Part shown: positions 4,961 to 36,786 of the stretch, piece by piece
Layout: every line of letters starts with the position of its first letter
Numbering within the stretch: the first letter of the stretch is position 1
DNA from: Clostridium sp.
GTDB lineage: Bacteria > Bacillota > Clostridia > Lachnospirales > Lachnospiraceae
Direction of reading: 5' to 3'
Length of the DNA: 37,082 nt
Assembly (NCBI GenBank): GCA_023664385.1
Contig: JAMPFU010000031.1
Span: 1-37,082, forward strand
The notes under the pieces: generated by a model
What the model was told of the DNA's origin: nothing
Databases searched by the model: none
The model's input: the letters and a program-made list of their open reading frames with translations, nothing else
Made by a program: the position numbers and the translations under genes

Positions 4961-5038
4961 AATCCTCTCTCCTTCTTAAATTAATGAACACACTGCCTTT
5001 GCACCTTTTATGTGTTTTTTACCGCTGTAGCTTAACAT

Positions 5039-5083
5039 AAAAAAGGTGCCTAGATACAGTATTTGCCTACTCTAGACACCTTT
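5039..5083 (-). terminator. Intrinsic terminator of the nucleoside salvage operon
   Basis: On the minus strand AAAGGTGTCTAGA pairs with TCTAGGCACCTTT (13 bp, one mismatch, 16-nt loop) and runs into TTTTTT. It lies about 90 bp after the deoB stop. The 3' arm can also pair with 5001-5013, see the findings. Confidence 0.8.
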
Positions 5084-5171
5084 GTCCTTGTATTTTATAT
5101 CATATTCCGACTAATCTTGTCAATAAAATTCACTTTATTTTTCTAATGTTTCATCACTGTAATAAAGTAAA

Positions 5172-6362
5172 TTATATTAATTTATCCAGCAAGGAGTTCC
5201 CTATCGTACCGCTTGGCATTGCAACGCCAAAATTGTCCGTTATGGTTGCCCCGATATCCGCAAAGGTATCGGAATCTGTCAATCTGCCGTTTCCTTTTAG
5301 GCATGGGGAATATGCAATAAACAAAACCCGCTCTCTTGTGTGGTCGGTTCCTGTGTGTGTAGGGTCATTGCCGTGGTCTGCCGTTATAATAAGTAAATCA
5401 TCCTCCCGCAGAACCGTAAGAAGCTGTCCTAACTTTTCGTCAAAACGCTCCAGCTCCTGTCCATATCCAATTGGATTTCTCCTGTGCCCCCATAAGGTGT
5501 CAAAGTCAACTAAGTTTACATAACACAAGCCTGTGAAATCCCTGCCTGCAATTTCTATCGTCTGCTCCATACCATGTACGGAGGACTTTGACCGATTGCT
5601 CTCAGTAATTCCCTCCCCTGCAAATATATCGTTTATCTTGCCGACCGATATCACGTCATAGCCTGCATCCTTTAGTGCATTTAACGCCGTTTGTCCATAG
5701 GGCTTCAATGCATAATCGTGCCGGTTACTCGTCCTTACAAACGCTCCCTTTTTCTTTCCCACATAAGGTCTTGCTATGACACGTCCTACCTTCCATTCAT
5801 CCCGCATGGTAAGCTCTCTTGCAATTTCGCAGCATCTGTAAAGCTCATCCAGCCCAAAGGTCTCCTCGTTGCCGCAGATTTGAAGAACCGAGTCGGAGGA
5901 TGTGTACACAATCATATTTCCTGTTGCTATCTCCTCCTCTGCAAGCTCATCCAAAATTGCAGTTCCGCTTGCACTTTTATTTCCGATTACCTTGTGTCCC
6001 GTCCTCTTTTCCAGCTCTGCAATAAGCTCAGCAGGAAAGCCTGTATCCGTAAAGGTCTGAAACGGCTTTGTAATGTGAAGCCCCATCATTTCCCAATGTC
6101 CTGTCATGGTGTCCTTGCCTGTGCTCGCCTCGTTCATTTTCATGTAATAGCCCATAGGTTCATCAATCGGCGGCACCTGTTTCAGGGGATGCAGATTTGC
6201 AAGTCCAAGCTTTTGTAAATTTGGTATGTGAAAAGCATCCATACGCTGTGAAATGTGCCCCAGCGTATCTGTTCCCACATCTCCGAAGCTTGCCGCATCC
6301 TCCATTGCACCCACGCCCAAGGAATCTATCACTATTGTAAATATACGTTTAAATCCTGCCAT
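5172..6362 (-). CDS. deoB: Phosphopentomutase
   Basis: Interconverts ribose (or deoxyribose) 1-phosphate and the 5-phosphate, linking the nucleoside phosphorylases to DeoC and the pentose phosphate pool. The 396 residues equal the usual DeoB length. Alkaline-phosphatase-superfamily metal motifs are visible: [13 protein letters not shown] at residues 11-23, with the metal Asp, and [18 protein letters not shown] near 324-341, with Asp and His ligands. AGGAGG lies 7 bp before the ATG. It is the last gene of the salvage operon; between it and udp lie two gene remnants, so its supply of transcript may have been changed by the rearrangement. Confidence 0.96.
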
Positions 6363-27909: not shown

Positions 27910-28062
27910 CTACTGCATGTGAAGATACTTCTCCTTTGTCGCCAGCCCTCCCCTGATATGCCGTTCCGCCTTGTTTACATCCAGCACCTTTCTCACTTCC
28001 TCCGCCAGCCCCGCATTAATATAAACAAGCCGTTCAGCGCAGTCCATGTGTACGGTCGTCAT
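27910..28062 (-). CDS. Small ORF overlapping the recombinase 3' end
   Basis: A frame of 50 codons starts at ATG 28062, inside the last codons of the recombinase gene, directly after an in-frame stop; a second ATG is at 28047. It reads MTTVHMDCAERLVYINAGLA, then VRKVLDVNKAERHIRGGLAT and ends KEKYLHMQ. It has the composition of a real helical protein, and the ends overlap by 29 bp, suggesting translational coupling. There is no good ribosome site of its own. I have an impression of similar short ORFs beside large serine recombinases in Clostridia but cannot name a family. Confidence 0.55.
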   Translation of the reverse strand: MTTVHMDCAERLVYINAGLAEEVRKVLDVNKAERHIRGGLATKEKYLHMQ

Positions 28063-29599
28063 TAACTAGGACGGTATCATCAACCAGCACGGACTCCTCC
28101 AAGCCCAAGTCCCCGAAGAGCCTCAGGTAAATGTCGATGTTGCCGTCCTTATCCACTTCTATTTTTTTAATAATCTTCTTCAGCTGTGTATTGGACATCT
28201 GACGCACATCAGTGATATCTTCGATTTCCTTAAATGTCGTGTTCAGTATCTTTTCCAGCTGTTCTCCTTTTGTCAGGTGGTAGGCAACCATTTTCAGCTC
28301 ATTTTCCAGCCGTTCAATTTCCTTCCTTGCACCGCCGATTTTCTCATTCAAATCCTCTCGGGTAATGAGGTCATCCATATACATATCCATATATTTCTGT
28401 CTGCTCTTTTTCAGCTTATTCAACTGTGCATTCAATTCTTTTTCATATTCAATGTTCTCATCCTTTGCCCTGTAGACCCGCTGAAATTCTCCAACCACAT
28501 GGTTGATGACCTTCTTTTTTTGCTTCAGCATGTCCGCAAAGTAATCCTGAATGACCGAGATAAGCTCGTCCTCATCCAAGGTGATTGCATTCGGGCAGCT
28601 ATCCGCCCCTCTGCCATTATGTCCTGAGCATACCCAGCGGACATATGTATTCTTGTAGGTGCGTACTGAACGCCGGAACGACCAGCCGCATTCCTTGCAT
28701 TTTATCAGCGTGGAAAACAGGTGCCTGTTACTCTGGCGTTCACGGGTCATTTTGAATGCATTATGCCGTGATTTCAGTATTTCCTGCGCCTTTTCATAAA
28801 GCTCATTGTCAATAATCTGCAAATCAGGACGCTCAACTATCATCCATTCTGCCTCGTCCTTATTTGTTCTCTGCCCTGTCAGAAAGTCTGTCACCTCCTG
28901 CTTGCCATTAATGATTTTTCCCGTATACAGTTCGTTTGTCAGAATCCTAGATACAGCATTCTGGCTCCACGCACAATTCCGTTTCGTTTTTAGCCCCCGC
29001 TCGTTGAGCATATTAGAAATTCTGGCAGTTCCATAACCGCCCTCTATGTACCATTTGTAAATCTGTCTTACAATTACCGCTTCTTCTTCATTGATAGTAA
29101 GATTAAAATAATCACCAATCGTTTTTTCATAACCATAGACTATGTTCGGAACGCGTCCTTTTTCGGCATTCATTTTCTTGCCGAACTTGACACGCTTGGA
29201 TGTGTTGGCACTCTCCTCCTGCGCTAAGGCTCCGAATATCGTAAGGACAAATTCACTGTTTCCCATGCTGGTCATGTTGGCAGTCAGGAATTGGGTTTCA
29301 ATTCCCAGTGCTTTGAGCTTGCGTATATTTTGCAGTAAATCAACTGTGTTTCTGGCAAAACGTGATATATCTTTTACCACTACCATGTCGAATATTCCAC
29401 GCTCAGCATCAGACATCATTTGCAGAAATTCCTTACGATTCTTTATCTTCGTACCTGATATTCCTTCATCCGCGTACAGCCGCACCAATGTATCACCTGT
29501 CCGTTTGGTATATTCTGCAAAAAACTCCTTCTGTGCCTCCAGACTGTTGAGCTGGTCCTCTTTATCCGTGGAAACACGACAGTATGCAGCTATATTCAT
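28034..29599 (-). CDS. Large serine recombinase (site-specific integrase)
   Basis: Integrase/transposase of 521 residues that excises and inserts a mobile element. The N-terminal resolvase domain has YCRVST (catalytic Ser at residue 9) and VVVKDISRFARN near 73-84 with the catalytic Arg. The recombinase domain spans about 160-270 (GYEKT, RISNMLNERG, NAVSRILTNE). The zinc ribbon has CKECGW near 297 and CSGH and CPNA near 321-332, and a coiled coil follows at about 375-435. GGGAGG precedes the ATG. The position marks the left part of an accessory element; the att sites were not located. Confidence 0.95.
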   Translation of the reverse strand: MNIAAYCRVSTDKEDQLNSLEAQKEFFAEYTKRTGDTLVRLYADEGISGTKIKNRKEFLQMMSDAERGIFDMVVVKDISRFARNTVDLLQNIRKLKALGIETQFLTANMTSMGNSEFVLTIFGALAQEESANTSKRVKFGKKMNAEKGRVPNIVYGYEKTIGDYFNLTINEEEAVIVRQIYKWYIEGGYGTARISNMLNERGLKTKRNCAWSQNAVSRILTNELYTGKIINGKQEVTDFLTGQRTNKDEAEWMIVERPDLQIIDNELYEKAQEILKSRHNAFKMTRERQSNRHLFSTLIKCKECGWSFRRSVRTYKNTYVRWVCSGHNGRGADSCPNAITLDEDELISVIQDYFADMLKQKKKVINHVVGEFQRVYRAKDENIEYEKELNAQLNKLKKSRQKYMDMYMDDLITREDLNEKIGGARKEIERLENELKMVAYHLTKGEQLEKILNTTFKEIEDITDVRQMSNTQLKKIIKKIEVDKDGNIDIYLRLFGDLGLEESVLVDDTVLVNDDRTHGLR

Positions 29600-29691: not shown

Positions 29692-30063
29692 TTATATTTG
29701 GTACGCGTCTTTTATATCATTTATGATATCTACTCCCTCTTTTGTCAGGATTTCCACCAACATTCTAGTCAGGGCTTCCAAATCCAACTTCAAATTTGTA
29801 ACAACATCCACAATGCGACCTTTGGTGCTGGTATTTAACATTGCAATAATCCAAGCATCCTTTTGAATCTCAGAATACGTGTCATTTGCAAATTTTCTCG
29901 CCTCATCAAATAATTGCTGACTTAATGCATTTTGTGCAATTATACTGAGATAATTATTGCACCTCTGTAATAGTTGCTTATGCTTTGCTATTTTCTTGGC
30001 AGTATCAATCTCCTCACATACCTTATCTGCAGGAACCGCCGCCCCATTTAACTGTTTGTCCAT
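29692..30063 (-). CDS. Small helical protein of unknown function
   Basis: Protein of 123 residues, no family recognised. It is hydrophilic and mostly helical in composition, with a central FANDTYSEIQKDAWIIAML and a Leu/Ile-rich C-terminal helix. AGGAGG precedes the ATG. It lies 92 bp upstream of the recombinase on the same strand and could be an accessory factor of the element, but nothing in the sequence shows that. Confidence 0.6.
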   Translation of the reverse strand: MDKQLNGAAVPADKVCEEIDTAKKIAKHKQLLQRCNNYLSIIAQNALSQQLFDEARKFANDTYSEIQKDAWIIAMLNTSTKGRIVDVVTNLKLDLEALTRMLVEILTKEGVDIINDIKDAYQI

Positions 30064-30257
30064 TTTATGCCTCCTATGTTGTAATTTCTATTTCTATAAT
30101 TATATTAGCATATTGTTGTAAAAAGAAAATGTCACAAAAGTGTCAAAAATGTATCAGAAAAGTATCACATAAACATCAGGATTTTTCACCTGAAATTGTT
30201 TGGGTGCAAATTGTTTAACCGTCAATGTCCTTATTATTTTTAAAGTCAACGATTATT

Positions 30258-30302
30258 AAAAATAAAAAGGCAGCCGTTTGTCTGTTAAGATAAACCGCTA
30301 CC
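30258..30302 (-). terminator. Intrinsic terminator of the three-gene cassette
   Basis: On the minus strand GGTAGCGGTTTATC pairs with GACAAACGGCTGCC (14 bp with G-U pairs and one mismatch, 6-nt loop) and is followed by TTTTTATTTTT. It is the first good terminator downstream of the UDG-like gene. The remaining part of 30064-30520 holds two gene fragments listed separately and otherwise AT-rich sequence. Confidence 0.8.
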
Positions 30303-30393
30303 CGTGATTGATATTCTGTTTTTCATCTTTATACCTTTTCAAAAAAGTATTCATATCCTTCCTCATCAAATACCGATTATGATTTGATACTTT
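30298..30393 (-). pseudogene. Excisionase-like C-terminal remnant
   Basis: About 31 codons are open on the minus strand: KVSNHNRYLMRKDMNTFLKR, then YKDEKQNINHG and TAG. RYLMRKDMNTFL resembles the wing and last helix of excisionase-type winged-helix DNA-binding proteins (pattern xNRYLxxxxDLxxFL). The N-terminal half is absent and an in-frame TAA precedes it. A fresh start at ATG 30370 or so cannot be excluded. Confidence 0.35.
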
Positions 30394-30437
30394 TTAAAGG
30401 AAACACCATCTGTTATATTTTGTTATTAAAAACTTCG

Positions 30438-30512
30438 CTAACCCTTATTCTCTTTCAACGCCATACCCACAAAATCATTAAAATCAATGTGAAAATACTC
30501 TTTTAATTTCCC
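30438..30512 (-). pseudogene. Short C-terminal gene fragment
   Basis: Twenty-five codons open on the minus strand between TAA and TAG: EGKLKEYFHIDFNDFVGMAL and KENKG. The composition looks like a real protein end but no family can be named. It lies 10 bp after the UDG-like gene. Confidence 0.25.
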
Positions 30513-30522
30513 CTCTTAATTA

Positions 30523-31071
30523 TCACAACAATTGATTTACTATTTTCTCTACACTTTTAATATATTCATCCATTATTTTTCTTTTATATACATAAATGTA
30601 AGAAGGATGGTGTATTGGAACATAATAAATATTTTCATGTACTTTATAGCGATATTCAAAACCGTCCCATTTTTCAAAATCAATATTCAAATGCTTTCCC
30701 ACCGAAGAATATACTTTTTCACCTAACAAAAAAACAATTTTAGGGGACATTATATGTATTTCATTAAGTAAATTTTCAAAACAACTATCAATTTCTTTTT
30801 TATTAGGATATCTAAGTTTCTGTTGTTCTGTTAATGGTAAGCATTTTACTAAATTAGTTTTGTAAGTTATAACATTATTACACACATCTTCTATTTTTTG
30901 AATCAGCATTCCTGTATTTGTTTCTGGTGATAAAGGAATTTCAACATCAGACATCATTTTTTTTGCTGATAACCCAACCCAAAAAATTTGACATTTTTTT
31001 TCTACATCCAGTAAGGGCTTCTGGTTTAAGCATAAGCCACATTTTCGACATTTATGTATTTGTTCTATCAT
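30523..31071 (-). CDS. Uracil-DNA-glycosylase-superfamily protein with altered active site
   Basis: Protein of 182 residues. It keeps the Fe-S pattern of family 4 UDGs: CRKCGLC at 8-14, a third Cys in TNLVKCLP near 73-80 and a fourth in EIDSCFENLL near 91-100. The C-terminal HHPSYIY and following Lys/Arg residues match the HPS(x)nR motif. The first catalytic motif, normally GEAPG followed by acidic residues, reads VGLSAKKMMSD instead, so ordinary uracil excision is doubtful. The ATG overlaps the radical SAM stop as ATGA. It is the last gene of the cassette; a base-binding or different base-chemistry role is inferred. Confidence 0.7.
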   Translation of the reverse strand: MIEQIHKCRKCGLCLNQKPLLDVEKKCQIFWVGLSAKKMMSDVEIPLSPETNTGMLIQKIEDVCNNVITYKTNLVKCLPLTEQQKLRYPNKKEIDSCFENLLNEIHIMSPKIVFLLGEKVYSSVGKHLNIDFEKWDGFEYRYKVHENIYYVPIHHPSYIYVYKRKIMDEYIKSVEKIVNQLL

Positions 31072-32402
31072 GATTTTTCCTCTGTAAGCTCCTGTGTTTT
31101 TATAATATATTCATTCAAAACTTCATCTGGTTCTTCACTATAATTTCCAAAATCAAAATTAAATTGTGATCTTCCACTAAAATGACTTATTGATTTATTA
31201 AATTCACATTCATGAATGATACCCGTATTTTCTAATATTTCATTAAATAACTGCGTACCATGATAGGGTCTAAATTGAAAAACACTCGTTCTAAAGGTCC
31301 CAGTAGTATTTTGTGAGATTGCTTGTAATTGTGAAGCTAATTCAAATGTTTTTTGAAAGTCATTTTTTGTTTCTTGAGGAAATCCATATATAAAATATCC
31401 TTTTAAGTCAATTCCACAACGCAATATCTCATGTGCTACTTTAATTATATCATCCGTTTTCCCCAACTTATTAATCTTCTTACGTATTGATTCTGAACCT
31501 GATTCGATTCCAATAAATAGTTCTTTGCATTTTCCAATTTGAAGCTGTTCTATTTTATCAATATCTCTTGCCAAAGATAATACATGCACCATACCTCTCC
31601 AACTCAATTTAGGAAATTGCAAAAATATGTTATTTGCCATATCAATACTTTTAGAATTGCGCAAAAACAAATCATCTAATATTCTGACACTTTGGATATC
31701 TGGATACGAATCAATTATATTTTGGATTTCTTTAATAACGCTTTCCTCTGTGCGAATTCGAATATTTACGTCCTTATTCAAACTTTTAGCTCCACCACAA
31801 AATGCACAATCAAATGCACATCCTCTTGATGTTATAATTGCTATTTCCTTTTCACCATAATGGTTAACAATCATTTCGTTTCCTAAGTATTTTCGATTTA
31901 AAAAAATGTTTGAGATATCATTAGGAAAATATATGGAATTATTATTCACCCTATATACATATTTATTTTCTTGTACTAATTCTGGTTCTTGTTCACACTT
32001 TCCTAAAGCAAGCGAAGGAATAATATATTCCCCTTCACCAATAATAATATTTAATTTATTTATAACATTCCATTGTAAGATTTCTTGATAAATGCTTTTA
32101 ACAACTTGCCCACCTATAAGACACTCACACTTTTCATAAATATTTTCCATGATGCATTTAACTATTTTATAATTTTGAGTAAATATATTTATTCCCAAAT
32201 AGTCTGGTCTCATTCTATCAACAAAGGCAATTATATCAGTAACTGATTTCTTCTCTTTCACACAATCTATAAGTTGAACATCTATGTTGCTTTTTTCTAA
32301 ATATGTAGCTATATAACCCAATCCTAATGGCGATAGATATTGTTCATCTTCTTCTGTGGATTCCCAAAAAATAGGTGAATTCAGCAAAACAAATTTTTTC
32401 AT
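31068..32402 (-). CDS. B12-binding-type radical SAM protein
   Basis: Protein of 444 residues. The N-terminal half (about 1-150) has the Rossmann-like layout of B12-binding domains, with SPLGLGYIATYLE near 24-36, but the DxHxxG histidine motif is not seen, so cobalamin may not bind base-off. The 4Fe-4S/SAM motif CAFDCAFC lies near 196-203, followed by GGAKSL, DDLFLRN and GIESGSESIRKKI. ATG at 32402 follows GGAGG and overlaps the kinase stop as ATGA; a TTG start lies four codons upstream. Reaction unknown: methylation, rearrangement or sulfur/carbon insertion on a small substrate or base are all possible. Confidence 0.8.
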   Translation of the reverse strand: MKKFVLLNSPIFWESTEEDEQYLSPLGLGYIATYLEKSNIDVQLIDCVKEKKSVTDIIAFVDRMRPDYLGINIFTQNYKIVKCIMENIYEKCECLIGGQVVKSIYQEILQWNVINKLNIIIGEGEYIIPSLALGKCEQEPELVQENKYVYRVNNNSIYFPNDISNIFLNRKYLGNEMIVNHYGEKEIAIITSRGCAFDCAFCGGAKSLNKDVNIRIRTEESVIKEIQNIIDSYPDIQSVRILDDLFLRNSKSIDMANNIFLQFPKLSWRGMVHVLSLARDIDKIEQLQIGKCKELFIGIESGSESIRKKINKLGKTDDIIKVAHEILRCGIDLKGYFIYGFPQETKNDFQKTFELASQLQAISQNTTGTFRTSVFQFRPYHGTQLFNEILENTGIIHECEFNKSISHFSGRSQFNFDFGNYSEEPDEVLNEYIIKTQELTEEKS

Positions 32403-33019
32403 TCTATCCTCCAATTTTTAATAATACATGAAACTATTTTTTCAACATTTCCATCAAGACTATCATTATTATTTATCAGTAAAATCTCTATATTTTTTTC
32501 TTGCAATTCTGCTATGCCCTTTTTCATGCAACAAAGCTCGTTATAAGATTGGTTATTTTTTTCAAACCGTGTTAAACTTTCTCGCTCTGATAATCTTTTC
32601 TGCAAAATATTTTCATTTGCAAAAACAGCTATCTGTAAATCCGGCTTTATAATTTCTGAATTCAAACTCAAAATGGTAGTATTTTTAACATTATCCATTG
32701 CCTGTAAAATTAAAGAAGATAAAATATATCTATCGGTGATAACAATTTTACCCTTATTCAATTCTGGAAGAATCTCGGCCGATATATGCTCATATCTATC
32801 AGCTGCAACTAAACAAGCCAAACTTATTCCTGAATGTTGTTCAGCGAATTTTCTTGTAAAATTCCCCAACTCAGAATTAGTTGGCTCGCACGTTATATAA
32901 ACTGCATAATTTTCAGATTCTAGCTTATTTTTCACTTTTTCTATAAGTGTTGATTTGCCGACACCGTTTGGTCCGTCTACTGCAACTAAAAACCCATTTG
33001 TATTGTTATGTTTAAACAT
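32399..33019 (-). CDS. Thymidylate kinase-like P-loop kinase
   Basis: Protein of 206 residues of the dTMP kinase family. The P-loop is GPNGVGKST near 16-24, the DRYILSS motif near 97-103 corresponds to the DRY/DRF of TMKs, TCEPTNSELG near 39-48 to the substrate loop, and RLSERESLTRFE near 136-147 is the lid region. It is the first gene of the three-gene cassette after a sigma-70-like promoter (33067-33095) and AGAGGGA. It is unlikely to be the housekeeping tmk, because of its AT-rich accessory context. A dedicated kinase for a modified or deoxy-pyrimidine nucleotide is inferred. Confidence 0.8.
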   Translation of the reverse strand: MFKHNNTNGFLVAVDGPNGVGKSTLIEKVKNKLESENYAVYITCEPTNSELGNFTRKFAEQHSGISLACLVAADRYEHISAEILPELNKGKIVITDRYILSSLILQAMDNVKNTTILSLNSEIIKPDLQIAVFANENILQKRLSERESLTRFEKNNQSYNELCCMKKGIAELQEKNIEILLINNNDSLDGNVEKIVSCIIKNWRIE

Positions 33020-33066
33020 GGTATTTCCCTCTAAATTGTTTCAAACCACCTTTTCTATAGCTTCTG

Positions 33067-33095
33067 ATTATACTATATCAAAAATGTTTTGTCGA
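33067..33095 (-). promoter_or_regulatory. Promoter of the kinase-radical SAM-UDG cassette
   Basis: On the minus strand TCGACA (33090-33095), a 17-bp spacer and TATAAT (33067-33072), about 48 bp before the kinase ATG. Confidence 0.65.
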
Positions 33096-34612: not shown

Positions 34613-34924
34613 TTATGTAATCAATTCCCTGATATCATCTATCAGTTGTTCCACTAAATCACACTTTTGCTCCAGTATGGATTTGGACATTTCTTTTGTC
34701 TCCTCAACACTGTAAATGCAACCGCTTATAATATAATCGGCGGTTGTCTGATAATAACCGCTCAGCAAATCTACGACAACCACGGACGGACTCCTTTTGC
34801 CCTGTTCAACCTTACACAGGGTGTCTATGGATAATCCCACCTCGCTTGCGACATCCTGCTGTGTTTTCCCTTTTGCCTCCCGAAGCTGTCTCAATCGGTT
34901 TCCGCACTCTCTTTTATCATACAT
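34613..34924 (-). CDS. XRE-family helix-turn-helix regulator
   Basis: Protein of 103 residues. The HTH covers residues 9-62: LRQLREAKGKTQQDVASEVG and LSIDTLCKVEQGKRSPSVVV, followed by YYQTTADYII, a full Cro/C1-type fold. The C-terminal 35 residues form an acidic helix, perhaps for dimer or partner contact. The ATG lies inside the last 34 bp of the MazF-like gene, so the two are translated together. It may take the place of a MazE antitoxin or repress the operon. Confidence 0.85.
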   Translation of the reverse strand: MYDKRECGNRLRQLREAKGKTQQDVASEVGLSIDTLCKVEQGKRSPSVVVVDLLSGYYQTTADYIISGCIYSVEETKEMSKSILEQKCDLVEQLIDDIRELIT

Positions 34925-35298
34925 ATATTTGTCTCCTTATTAATTCCAAACTGTCTCATAATAGCCTTTTCCAACCGCCTCATAATATCTGAGTTGCCGT
35001 CAATATGCCCTGCTTTCCTAATAATTTTACTTTTATCCACAGTGGCAATCTGCTCCGGCATGCAGACAGAAACCATATCTAAGAACCCATCTACATCATT
35101 CGGCGTGACCTGAACATGCACAGGAATAAATTTCTTATCCTGCTTTCCTGAAAACGGACAAACATTCACAACAGTGGAACATTTATTATTTCTGTCATTA
35201 CTTACTACAATACATGGTCTTAAACCCGATTGAACGGAGCTTTTGGGATGTTGTCCCAAATCAACATATACAATATCTCCCCGCATAATTTCTTTCAT
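34891..35298 (-). CDS. MazF/PemK-family toxin
   Basis: Predicted mRNA interferase of 135 residues. Family motifs: RGDIVYVDLG at 6-15, QSGLRPCIVVSND near 22-34 and STVVNVCPFSG near 40-50; DMVSVCMPEQI near 74-84 and RRLEKAIMRQFGI near 105-117 match the strand and last helix. AGGAGG precedes the ATG, which lies 18 bp after the recombinase-like gene. There is no MazE-type gene upstream; the overlapping XRE gene downstream is the only candidate antitoxin. An extra 15-residue tail encodes the overlap. Confidence 0.88.
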   Translation of the reverse strand: MKEIMRGDIVYVDLGQHPKSSVQSGLRPCIVVSNDRNNKCSTVVNVCPFSGKQDKKFIPVHVQVTPNDVDGFLDMVSVCMPEQIATVDKSKIIRKAGHIDGNSDIMRRLEKAIMRQFGINKETNICMIKESAETD

Positions 35299-36169: not shown

Positions 36170-36547
36170 TTATATTTGATGCTCTAACAGCCATTGTAGG
36201 ACATCCTCATACTGTTTTTTATCTGCTGCTACATCTAGTATTAAATCTGACAACTCTTTCTGGGTATATCCTAATTCATATCCATTAACGGATAAAAACA
36301 CCAGCATCGCATGAACACCGATTCTTTTATTTCCATCTACCATCGCATGGTTTTTGACCAGTCCATAACATAATCTCGCTGCCTTTGCCTGTATACTTGG
36401 ATATAATTCTTTTCCGCCATAGGATTGGAACGGTGCTTCCAAGGCAGATTCAAGTAGTCCAATATCTCTAATGCCATCACTGCCCCCTGTCATTTTTATT
36501 AGCTCCGAATGAAGCATTAAAATCTGCTCCTTTGTCAGTTTAATCAT
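36170..36547 (-). CDS. doc: Doc-type toxin (Fic/death-on-curing family)
   Basis: Predicted Fic-fold kinase-like toxin of 125 residues that phosphorylates EF-Tu in the studied P1 Doc. The core motif is HAMVDGNKRIG near residues 66-76, matching HxFxxxNKR; here Met replaces the usual Phe. IRDIGLLESALEAPFQSYGG near 25-44 is typical of the Doc N-terminus. Its ATG overlaps the antitoxin stop as ATGA. Confidence 0.9.
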   Translation of the reverse strand: MIKLTKEQILMLHSELIKMTGGSDGIRDIGLLESALEAPFQSYGGKELYPSIQAKAARLCYGLVKNHAMVDGNKRIGVHAMLVFLSVNGYELGYTQKELSDLILDVAADKKQYEDVLQWLLEHQI

Positions 36548-36786
36548 TTTGCCAATACCTCATAGGCTTCTCTATTCTGTTCAATCAATCTTTTTGAAAT
36601 ACTCAATATATCCTCTTCGGATGTGGTAGTATCCTCTTCTGCCTTGCTAAAGTCTATAACCAGATATCTTGGTACATTATTTTTAAGAATAACTGCTGTT
36701 CCGTGTTCATCTACCAACCTTGCCACCTTGGAAAAATTCTGGTTGGCTTCAGTAATAGAAACCAATGTGTTTGTATTTATCGTCAT
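36544..36786 (-). CDS. phd: Phd/YefM-family antitoxin
   Basis: Protein of 80 residues. The N-terminal DNA-binding part has SITEANQNFSKVARLVDEHG at 11-30 and AVILKNNVPRYLVID, the standard Phd/YefM pattern; the acidic C-terminal part (about 50-80) should be the toxin-binding tail. AGGAGG precedes the ATG. It is the first gene of the two-gene operon. Confidence 0.92.
   Translation of the reverse strand: MTINTNTLVSITEANQNFSKVARLVDEHGTAVILKNNVPRYLVIDFSKAEEDTTTSEEDILSISKRLIEQNREAYEVLAK

Follow-up and report, generated by a model that had tools for sequence, protein, structure and literature searches.

The window analysed here, 37082 bases long, is one complete contig of an assembly from a gut bacterium, a Clostridium species of the family Lachnospiraceae. 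Its minus strand carries three complete open reading frames (ORFs), encoding a thymidylate kinase (TMK)-like protein, a radical SAM enzyme and a uracil-DNA glycosylase (UDG)-like protein, in this order, together called the cassette below. We suggest, with confidence a little short of even, a mobile module for nucleotide chemistry, probably directed against phages, in which an altered deoxynucleoside triphosphate (dNTP) acts as poison and a repair protein as antidote. The third component is repeatedly swapped among base-excision and pool-type proteins in relatives, and the genes occur in mobile and defence-gene contexts.

Structure of the cassette and its three protein families

The following features were identified; lengths are in nucleotides (nt) or amino acids (aa).

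32399..33019, minus strand: TMK-like nucleotide kinase, first gene, 206 aa (Pfam Thymidylate_kin, 1.4e-31)
31068..32402, minus strand: B12-binding radical SAM enzyme, 444 aa from ATG (Pfam B12-binding, 7.1e-12; Radical_SAM, 6.4e-16)
30523..31071, minus strand: UDG-superfamily protein, divergent, nearest to family 4, 182 aa (Pfam UDG, 2.6e-13)
32399..32402, minus strand: ATGA overlap of the TMK stop and the radical SAM start, 4 nt
31068..31071, minus strand: ATGA overlap of the radical SAM stop and the UDG start, 4 nt
33067..33095, minus strand: promoter-like site TCGACA-17-TATAAT, 11/12 matches, the best in the region, ~50 nt before the TMK start

The original prediction, made from the sequence of the window, had noted overlaps at ATGA junctions, and indeed both are present. 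It had also assumed one promoter and one terminator for all three genes. The site TCGACA-17-TATAAT at 33095-33067 is only suggestive as the cassette promoter, because 28 promoter-like sites were found versus 23.3 (sd 5.2) in shuffled sequence. The shared terminator was not confirmed: none was found directly 3' of the UDG-like gene, the minus strand having a weak 5-bp stem ~330 nt downstream. The radical SAM gene has an alternative start at an upstream in-frame TTG codon (32414), which would yield a protein of 448 aa.

All three genes are under purifying selection, with dN/dS of 0.06-0.21 against four relatives, dS being near saturation in some pairs. The same genome encodes another TMK on contig C15 (3.9e-56) and another UDG on contig C13 (1.2e-17), and thus the cassette TMK and UDG are extra copies. 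Given these separate genes and the tree described next, the possibility that the cassette consists of ordinary housekeeping genes was rejected.

The kinase scores above the TIGR00041 thymidylate kinase cut-off (111.1 vs 83.25 bits). The subfamily is marked by the motifs EPTxSxLG ... ACLVAADRYEH ... TRFE. In the tree, 18 cassette TMKs and the TMK of locus L047 are split from 20 other TMK rows with support 100/99; the housekeeping rows represent the window's own phylum and L072, whose TMK sits in a DNA polymerase III gene context, with no Bacteroidota housekeeping set. The L023 TMK is not in the tree, and L090, L095, L102, L107, L108 and L109 were dropped before building, the frame being either not a TMK or a remote one. 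At the sequence level, the cassette kinases form a subfamily distinct from the sampled housekeeping TMKs. A single clade of Firmicutes and Streptomyces cassette TMKs was considered and rejected, as its support is only 74/29; the 100/99 branch joins both with the L047 TMK.

The radical SAM protein has an N-terminal B12-binding domain and a radical SAM core with the CxxxCxxC motif (within SRGCAFDCAFC), the two features that define cobalamin-dependent radical SAM enzymes. By domain content it is predicted to be of this type. OxsB is among its best structural matches, with 17% identity over the structural alignment. Viperins are not known to have the B12 domain. The cassette protein does not belong to the viperin lineage, as it has this domain and matches other radical SAM families best.

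The UDG-like protein shares the fold, the Fe-S cysteine pattern and the HPS motif with family 4 uracil-DNA glycosylases, and the four cysteines at the family 4 Fe-S positions are conserved. However, it falls far below the NCBIfam family 4 equivalog cut-off (50.5 vs 250 bits), and its motif 1 is GLSA instead of the acid-containing GEAPG of the aligned family 4 protein 4zbx. The motif-1 acid has a catalytic role in UDGs. At this position of the UDG alignment there is leucine in 57 of 60 rows, isoleucine in three, and an acid in none. The group has signatures of its own, PL...TxSG and YKRK. The loci were picked for matching Y[KR]TNLVKC and RYPN[KRD]KEI, so the conservation of those residues is partly built in; that of GLSA, PL, the N-terminal cysteines and HPS is independent of the selection.

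Recurrence of the genes and interchangeable partners

When genome contigs were scanned with the UDG alignment, 64 loci emerged, from Firmicutes, Bacteroidota, Ignavibacteria, Proteobacteria, archaeal metagenome-assembled genomes and others. Loci L021, L023 and L029 share their contigs with the G086, G212 and G604 loci and were not counted twice. A radical SAM gene is present in 45 loci, of which 43 have it on the strand of the UDG gene and no more than 200 nt away, and two (L041, L069) on the opposite strand. It was not found in the other 19, two of which (L033, L064) are at a contig edge. The TMK gene precedes the radical SAM-UDG pair in 11 loci (L013, L014, L015, L017, L018, L022, L023, L025, L026, L027, L028; L025 is counted despite a radical SAM frame broken into two ORFs), and is convergent to the pair in one more, L047.

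The original prediction had regarded the three genes as a fixed unit, to be refuted if they were found mostly apart. This holds for the adjacent and co-directed radical SAM-UDG pair and fails for the TMK; a cassette always made of three genes was rejected, as the TMK is missing from most UDG loci. Over 37 loci, the distances among the radical SAM proteins are correlated with those among the UDG proteins (Mantel r 0.851, none of 5000 permutations as high), and therefore the pair travels together.

A longer UDG relative (~360 aa) was observed in some Bacilli (L058, L060, L063), with no radical SAM gene. Two genes 3' of it in these loci look ASCH-like, judged by eye only.

The cassette is rare. 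The radical SAM protein was found in three of 299 genomes of the family and the UDG profile in two of 398 genomes of the phylum, the window's own genome being included in both counts; in the phylum of the Bacteroidota genome G692 the count is one of 335, G692 itself included. No viral contig matched the single radical SAM protein or query A3, and no plasmid matched the UDG, used as a single protein or a small alignment; in the same form the UDG matched one unannotated phage record. Larger profiles gave more matches than single proteins or the small alignment. There are at least 33 viral TMK matches, nine with identity of at least 42% and 24 with at most 38%. The latter look, by sequence, like general phage TMKs, and the three of them whose loci were opened (L141, L143, L151) show no radical SAM match. 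The counts exclude locus L132 (28% identity), where the radical SAM protein is remote.

The radical SAM protein matched 71 plasmid records, of which eight were opened. All are of one type, the Streptomyces type, with the gene order AlkA-like, radical SAM, TMK, and then NUDIX (seven) or MazG-like (one, L009); in the unannotated L082 the order was established by tblastn. The relation to AlkA comes from comparison of a seven-sequence profile with a solved 3-methyladenine glycosylase (6.6e-6) and from an invariant aspartate in the motif DLAVR; the AlkA aspartate is catalytic. Two AlkA-like proteins tested against Pfam at E 5 gave no glycosylase match. This four-gene order recurs on seven IMG/VR contigs:

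L128
L130/L133
L131/L137
L134
L135
L136
L129, where the contig ends before the AlkA-like gene

Other relatives have other partners. In L120, another contig of the genome containing L013, the order is radical SAM, AlkZ-like glycosylase (4.7e-32), TMK. This cassette seems, by eye only, to interrupt a conjugative coupling-protein gene (L120:1-357 and 5027-5791). In L126 two deaminase-like genes follow the TMK, first a dCTP deaminase-like one (1.2e-36) and then another (2.3e-9), with a radical SAM gene between them whose frame looks interrupted. Three viral contigs combine a radical SAM protein of another lineage with a cassette-subfamily TMK and an Exo_endo_phos-type (exonuclease III-like) protein, L138 and L139 with an added MazG-like gene; the Exo_endo_phos matches are 1.5e-13, 2.8e-9 and, below the cut-off, 3.8e-4:

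L138:3874-6856
L139:3874-6584
L140:3688-6445

Locus L069 links the cassette types, having NUDIX, UDG and a Streptomyces-type radical SAM protein. Seen from the TMK side, a base-excision or pool-type partner occurs in 13 of 13 close matches (among the matches listed); these comprise four genomes, of which G000 and G692 contributed profile rows, and the nine viral rows with at least 42% identity. Thus the third component is repeatedly swapped among base-excision and pool-type proteins. These partners are united by their job and not by their fold: all would remove an unwanted base from DNA or an unwanted nucleotide from the pool.

Mobile and defence-gene context

The cassette had been described as richer in A and T than the genes to its left and as lying among toxin-antitoxin and recombinase genes. 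Both observations stand. G+C content is 0.28-0.30 over 30001-33000, compared with 0.37-0.48 in windows from 1 to 29500, and the following genes are nearby.

28034..29599, minus strand: large serine recombinase, adjoining the cassette but outside the unit (Pfam Resolvase, 1e-33; Recombinase, 7.2e-25)
34891..35298: PemK/MazF-like toxin gene, right of the cassette (Pfam)
36170..36786: Fic/Phd pair, right of the cassette (Pfam; the Phd match is below its cut-off)

The serine recombinase (28034-29599) may mobilise the element.

A location on elements or in defence islands, suggested as a check by the original prediction, was seen for some relatives: they lie beside Kiwa genes, RosmerTA-like genes, integrases or a terminase. 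In L020 and L021 the Kiwa genes KwaB and KwaA take the place of the TMK; the junction of KwaA with the radical SAM start in L021 is again an ATGA overlap. Loci of the Bacteroidota type have XRE-M78 and PIN-like genes 5' of the pair, often with a membrane protein gene between. The XRE-M78 cluster occurs in 14 loci (including L074, which has no radical SAM call), the PIN-like gene in 13 and the membrane protein in ten. One member of the XRE-M78 cluster was scanned, that of L056, and it matches the model of the RosmerTA antitoxin RmrA (6.7e-53). The PIN-like label comes from a match of the L056 protein to PADLOC PDC-S70 (7.5e-7) and a Pfam PIN match of the L037 protein below the cut-off; the L061 protein has no Pfam match. 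RosmerTA is a tested defence family according to the excerpt of PMC10440598. The membrane protein (~263 aa, L056:5790-6602 and relatives) is from ten Bacteroidota and Ignavibacteria loci; in nine it precedes the radical SAM gene, and in L042 it follows the UDG gene on the other strand. Its L073 member has no Pfam match.

In L070 an Eco57I-type restriction-modification gene precedes the pair and a Schlafen AlbA_2 gene follows it. The IMG/VR contig L165 contains the whole trio and then a phage terminase gene (1.5e-42). A survey covered 150 of 153 listed neighbour proteins from 46 loci including the window, proteins of less than 100 or more than 1300 residues being excluded. Among the matches listed, two neighbours each match the GajB, KwaA, KwaB, type IIG restriction and type I methylase models, four of the 150 match SoFic and six match phage integrases; these statistics cover the best 25 of 213 and of 149 families, have no matched control, and include unspecific matches such as mad2. 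Integrases and resolvases occur among the neighbours. The cassette thus has a mobile and defence-gene context. The Kiwa and RosmerTA genes look like add-on modules and not part of the core; they were not found in the cassette of the window.

An rlmCD/TrmA-like RNA methyltransferase gene was observed directly upstream of the TMK or radical SAM gene in L022, L023, L024 and L028; its 3' end is therefore a possible hot spot for insertion. The corresponding cluster c9 is present in seven loci, two of them being short pieces, and tRNA_U5-meth_tr matches four of the 150 neighbours. In L012:2-8101 (G604) the radical SAM-UDG end adjoins transposition genes that look Tn7-type by eye only; here the cassette may be transposon cargo.

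Proposed mechanism and relation to known systems

In the proposed mechanism, the B12-dependent radical SAM enzyme would alter a deoxypyrimidine nucleotide, the simplest candidates being dUMP, dTMP and their relatives, and the TMK-like kinase would take the altered nucleotide towards the triphosphate. The altered dNTP would then poison DNA synthesis of a replicating phage. The UDG-like protein would serve as the host antidote, taking the altered base out of host DNA. In relatives this role would pass to AlkA-like or AlkZ-like glycosylases or the exonuclease III-like protein, or, at the level of the pool, to NUDIX, MazG-like or dCTP deaminase/dUTPase-type proteins. We propose a poison and an antidote because the partners share a common job and the core pair of radical SAM enzyme and TMK seems apt to produce a nucleotide analogue and activate it. 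We infer the substrate, the product, its toxicity and the phage as target, as well as catalytic activity of the UDG-like protein. The main structural doubt about the proposal is the loss of the usual motif-1 acid from the UDG. The 19 UDG copies without a radical SAM gene fit orphan immunity, other readings being possible. The original prediction of a modified pyrimidine nucleotide or base, used for defence or element maintenance, is partly supported by the recurrence with swapped base-excision and pool-type partners and by the defence and mobile contexts. It is possible, with slightly lower confidence than for the cassette itself, that there is a scattered, widely spread and unnamed class of bacterial and phage-borne immunity, where radical SAM enzyme and TMK would make a deoxypyrimidine triphosphate poison and each lineage would have its own interchangeable antidote.

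The same genes could be read differently. The glycosylase may be the weapon itself, excising the altered base from new phage DNA so that abasic sites break the genome and possibly the cell. The presence of glycosylases and an exonuclease III-like protein in operons with nucleotide genes is consistent with that, as are the defence-gene neighbours; moreover, a dCTP deaminase-like partner would raise dUTP and not clean the pool. However, NUDIX and MazG-like partners would oppose incorporation, the UDG copies lacking a radical SAM gene are more easily read as orphan immunity, and the UDG has lost the usual motif-1 acid, so that we consider this offensive role unlikely. The absence of the acid in all 60 rows would be less surprising if the UDG-like protein, possibly non-catalytic, read or controlled a modified pyrimidine in the own DNA of an element or phage. 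Phage thymidine hypermodification uses kinases and radical enzymes, and this analogy, already drawn in the original prediction, agrees with the combination of a kinase, a radical enzyme and a base-recognition fold, and with the trio beside the terminase gene in L165. Such self-marking is nevertheless distinctly unlikely: no DNA polymerase, methylase or transferase gene was seen to recur in the unit, and the AlkA-like, AlkZ-like or pool-type partners of the other types would antagonise a wanted modification.

It is just as improbable that the product is a small nucleoside antibiotic secreted against competitors, with the glycosylase, NUDIX or MazG-like protein conferring self-resistance, as AlkZ does in azinomycin clusters. 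AlkZ-family glycosylases are tested self-resistance proteins for genotoxic natural products (PMC9040887, PMC8934636, as excerpted), OxsB makes oxetanocin (excerpt of PMC13331322), the Streptomyces types are on plasmids, and L081 is near an ABC transporter, a methyltransferase and further radical SAM genes. On the other hand, the Firmicutes and Bacteroidota units have no recurrent gene for an exporter or a dephosphorylating enzyme, and the cassettes are compact, some being on phage-like contigs and some beside defence genes. Least probable, and indeed hardly likely, is a repair or salvage unit that makes no poison and cleans up damaged pyrimidine nucleotides and bases. The partners are base-excision or pool-type proteins, as it would require, but the kinase would activate damaged nucleotides instead of removing them, and the distribution is sparse for such a function.

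The original prediction knew of no described system with this trio, and the searches matched it to no named operon, except for a remote, unnamed two-component candidate. This is the phage-defence candidate PDC-M51 of PADLOC. The cassette radical SAM protein matches PDC-M51A (47 bits, 3.8e-13, model positions 21-350 of 420), and the TMK matches PDC-M51B (47.6 bits, 3.7e-13, model positions 4-142 of 191). The radical SAM proteins of L120 and L056 and the TMKs of L120 and L007 also match these models; the Streptomyces radical SAM protein L007 does not. With ~47 bits each, the radical SAM and kinase components appear to be remotely related to PDC-M51, and thus a radical SAM-TMK pair had been flagged as a candidate before, anonymously. 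No glycosylase or pool-type PADLOC model was matched in scans of the window and of selected relatives' proteins. A search of 199 genomes of the phylum with the PDC-M51 models at a limit of 1e-60, too strict for such matches, gave none, controls included, and is uninformative. Literature searches for the trio, the radical SAM-UDG pair or PDC-M51, covering titles and abstract openings, turned up none that describes them, nor a function for PDC-M51.

Kinase genes occur as neighbours of prokaryotic viperins. The nearest working principle is that of prokaryotic viperin and SAND, where a radical SAM enzyme is likewise tied to antiviral nucleotide analogues, although viperin is of a different family from the cassette enzyme; its ddhCTP chemistry yields an antiviral nucleotide analogue (PMC9642334, as excerpted). 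OxsB is a B12 radical SAM enzyme that acts on dAMP, dADP or dATP on the way to an antiviral nucleoside. However, in the oxetanocin and albucidin systems (OxsB / AlsB), OxsB is larger (four domains), has a purine substrate and works with the HD phosphohydrolase OxsA, and the excerpt of PMC13331322 that describes it names no TMK or glycosylase partner. DNA glycosylases are antidotes in genotoxin clusters (excerpts of PMC9040887, PMC8934636). In AlkZ/YcaQ self-resistance the glycosylase is encoded beside the biosynthetic genes, like the AlkZ-like protein of the L120 cassette; the toxins there are large alkylating natural products, whereas the cassette operon encodes nucleotide enzymes, and a word search in the available text of PMC9040887 found neither 'radical SAM' nor 'thymidylate kinase'.

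The module would follow the radical SAM logic of antiviral nucleotides. If the reading as a class of poison and antidote is correct, viperin would have a counterpart of this kind that targets DNA precursors. Bacterial radical chemistry would then make poisons of the DNA chain, beyond the altered ribonucleotides of viperin, with base-excision repair as self-protection, and antiviral nucleotides, self-resistance glycosylases and defence islands would be joined in one module. Such cassettes would be a route to new nucleoside analogues and, because the antidote reveals which base is altered, to new glycosylase specificities.

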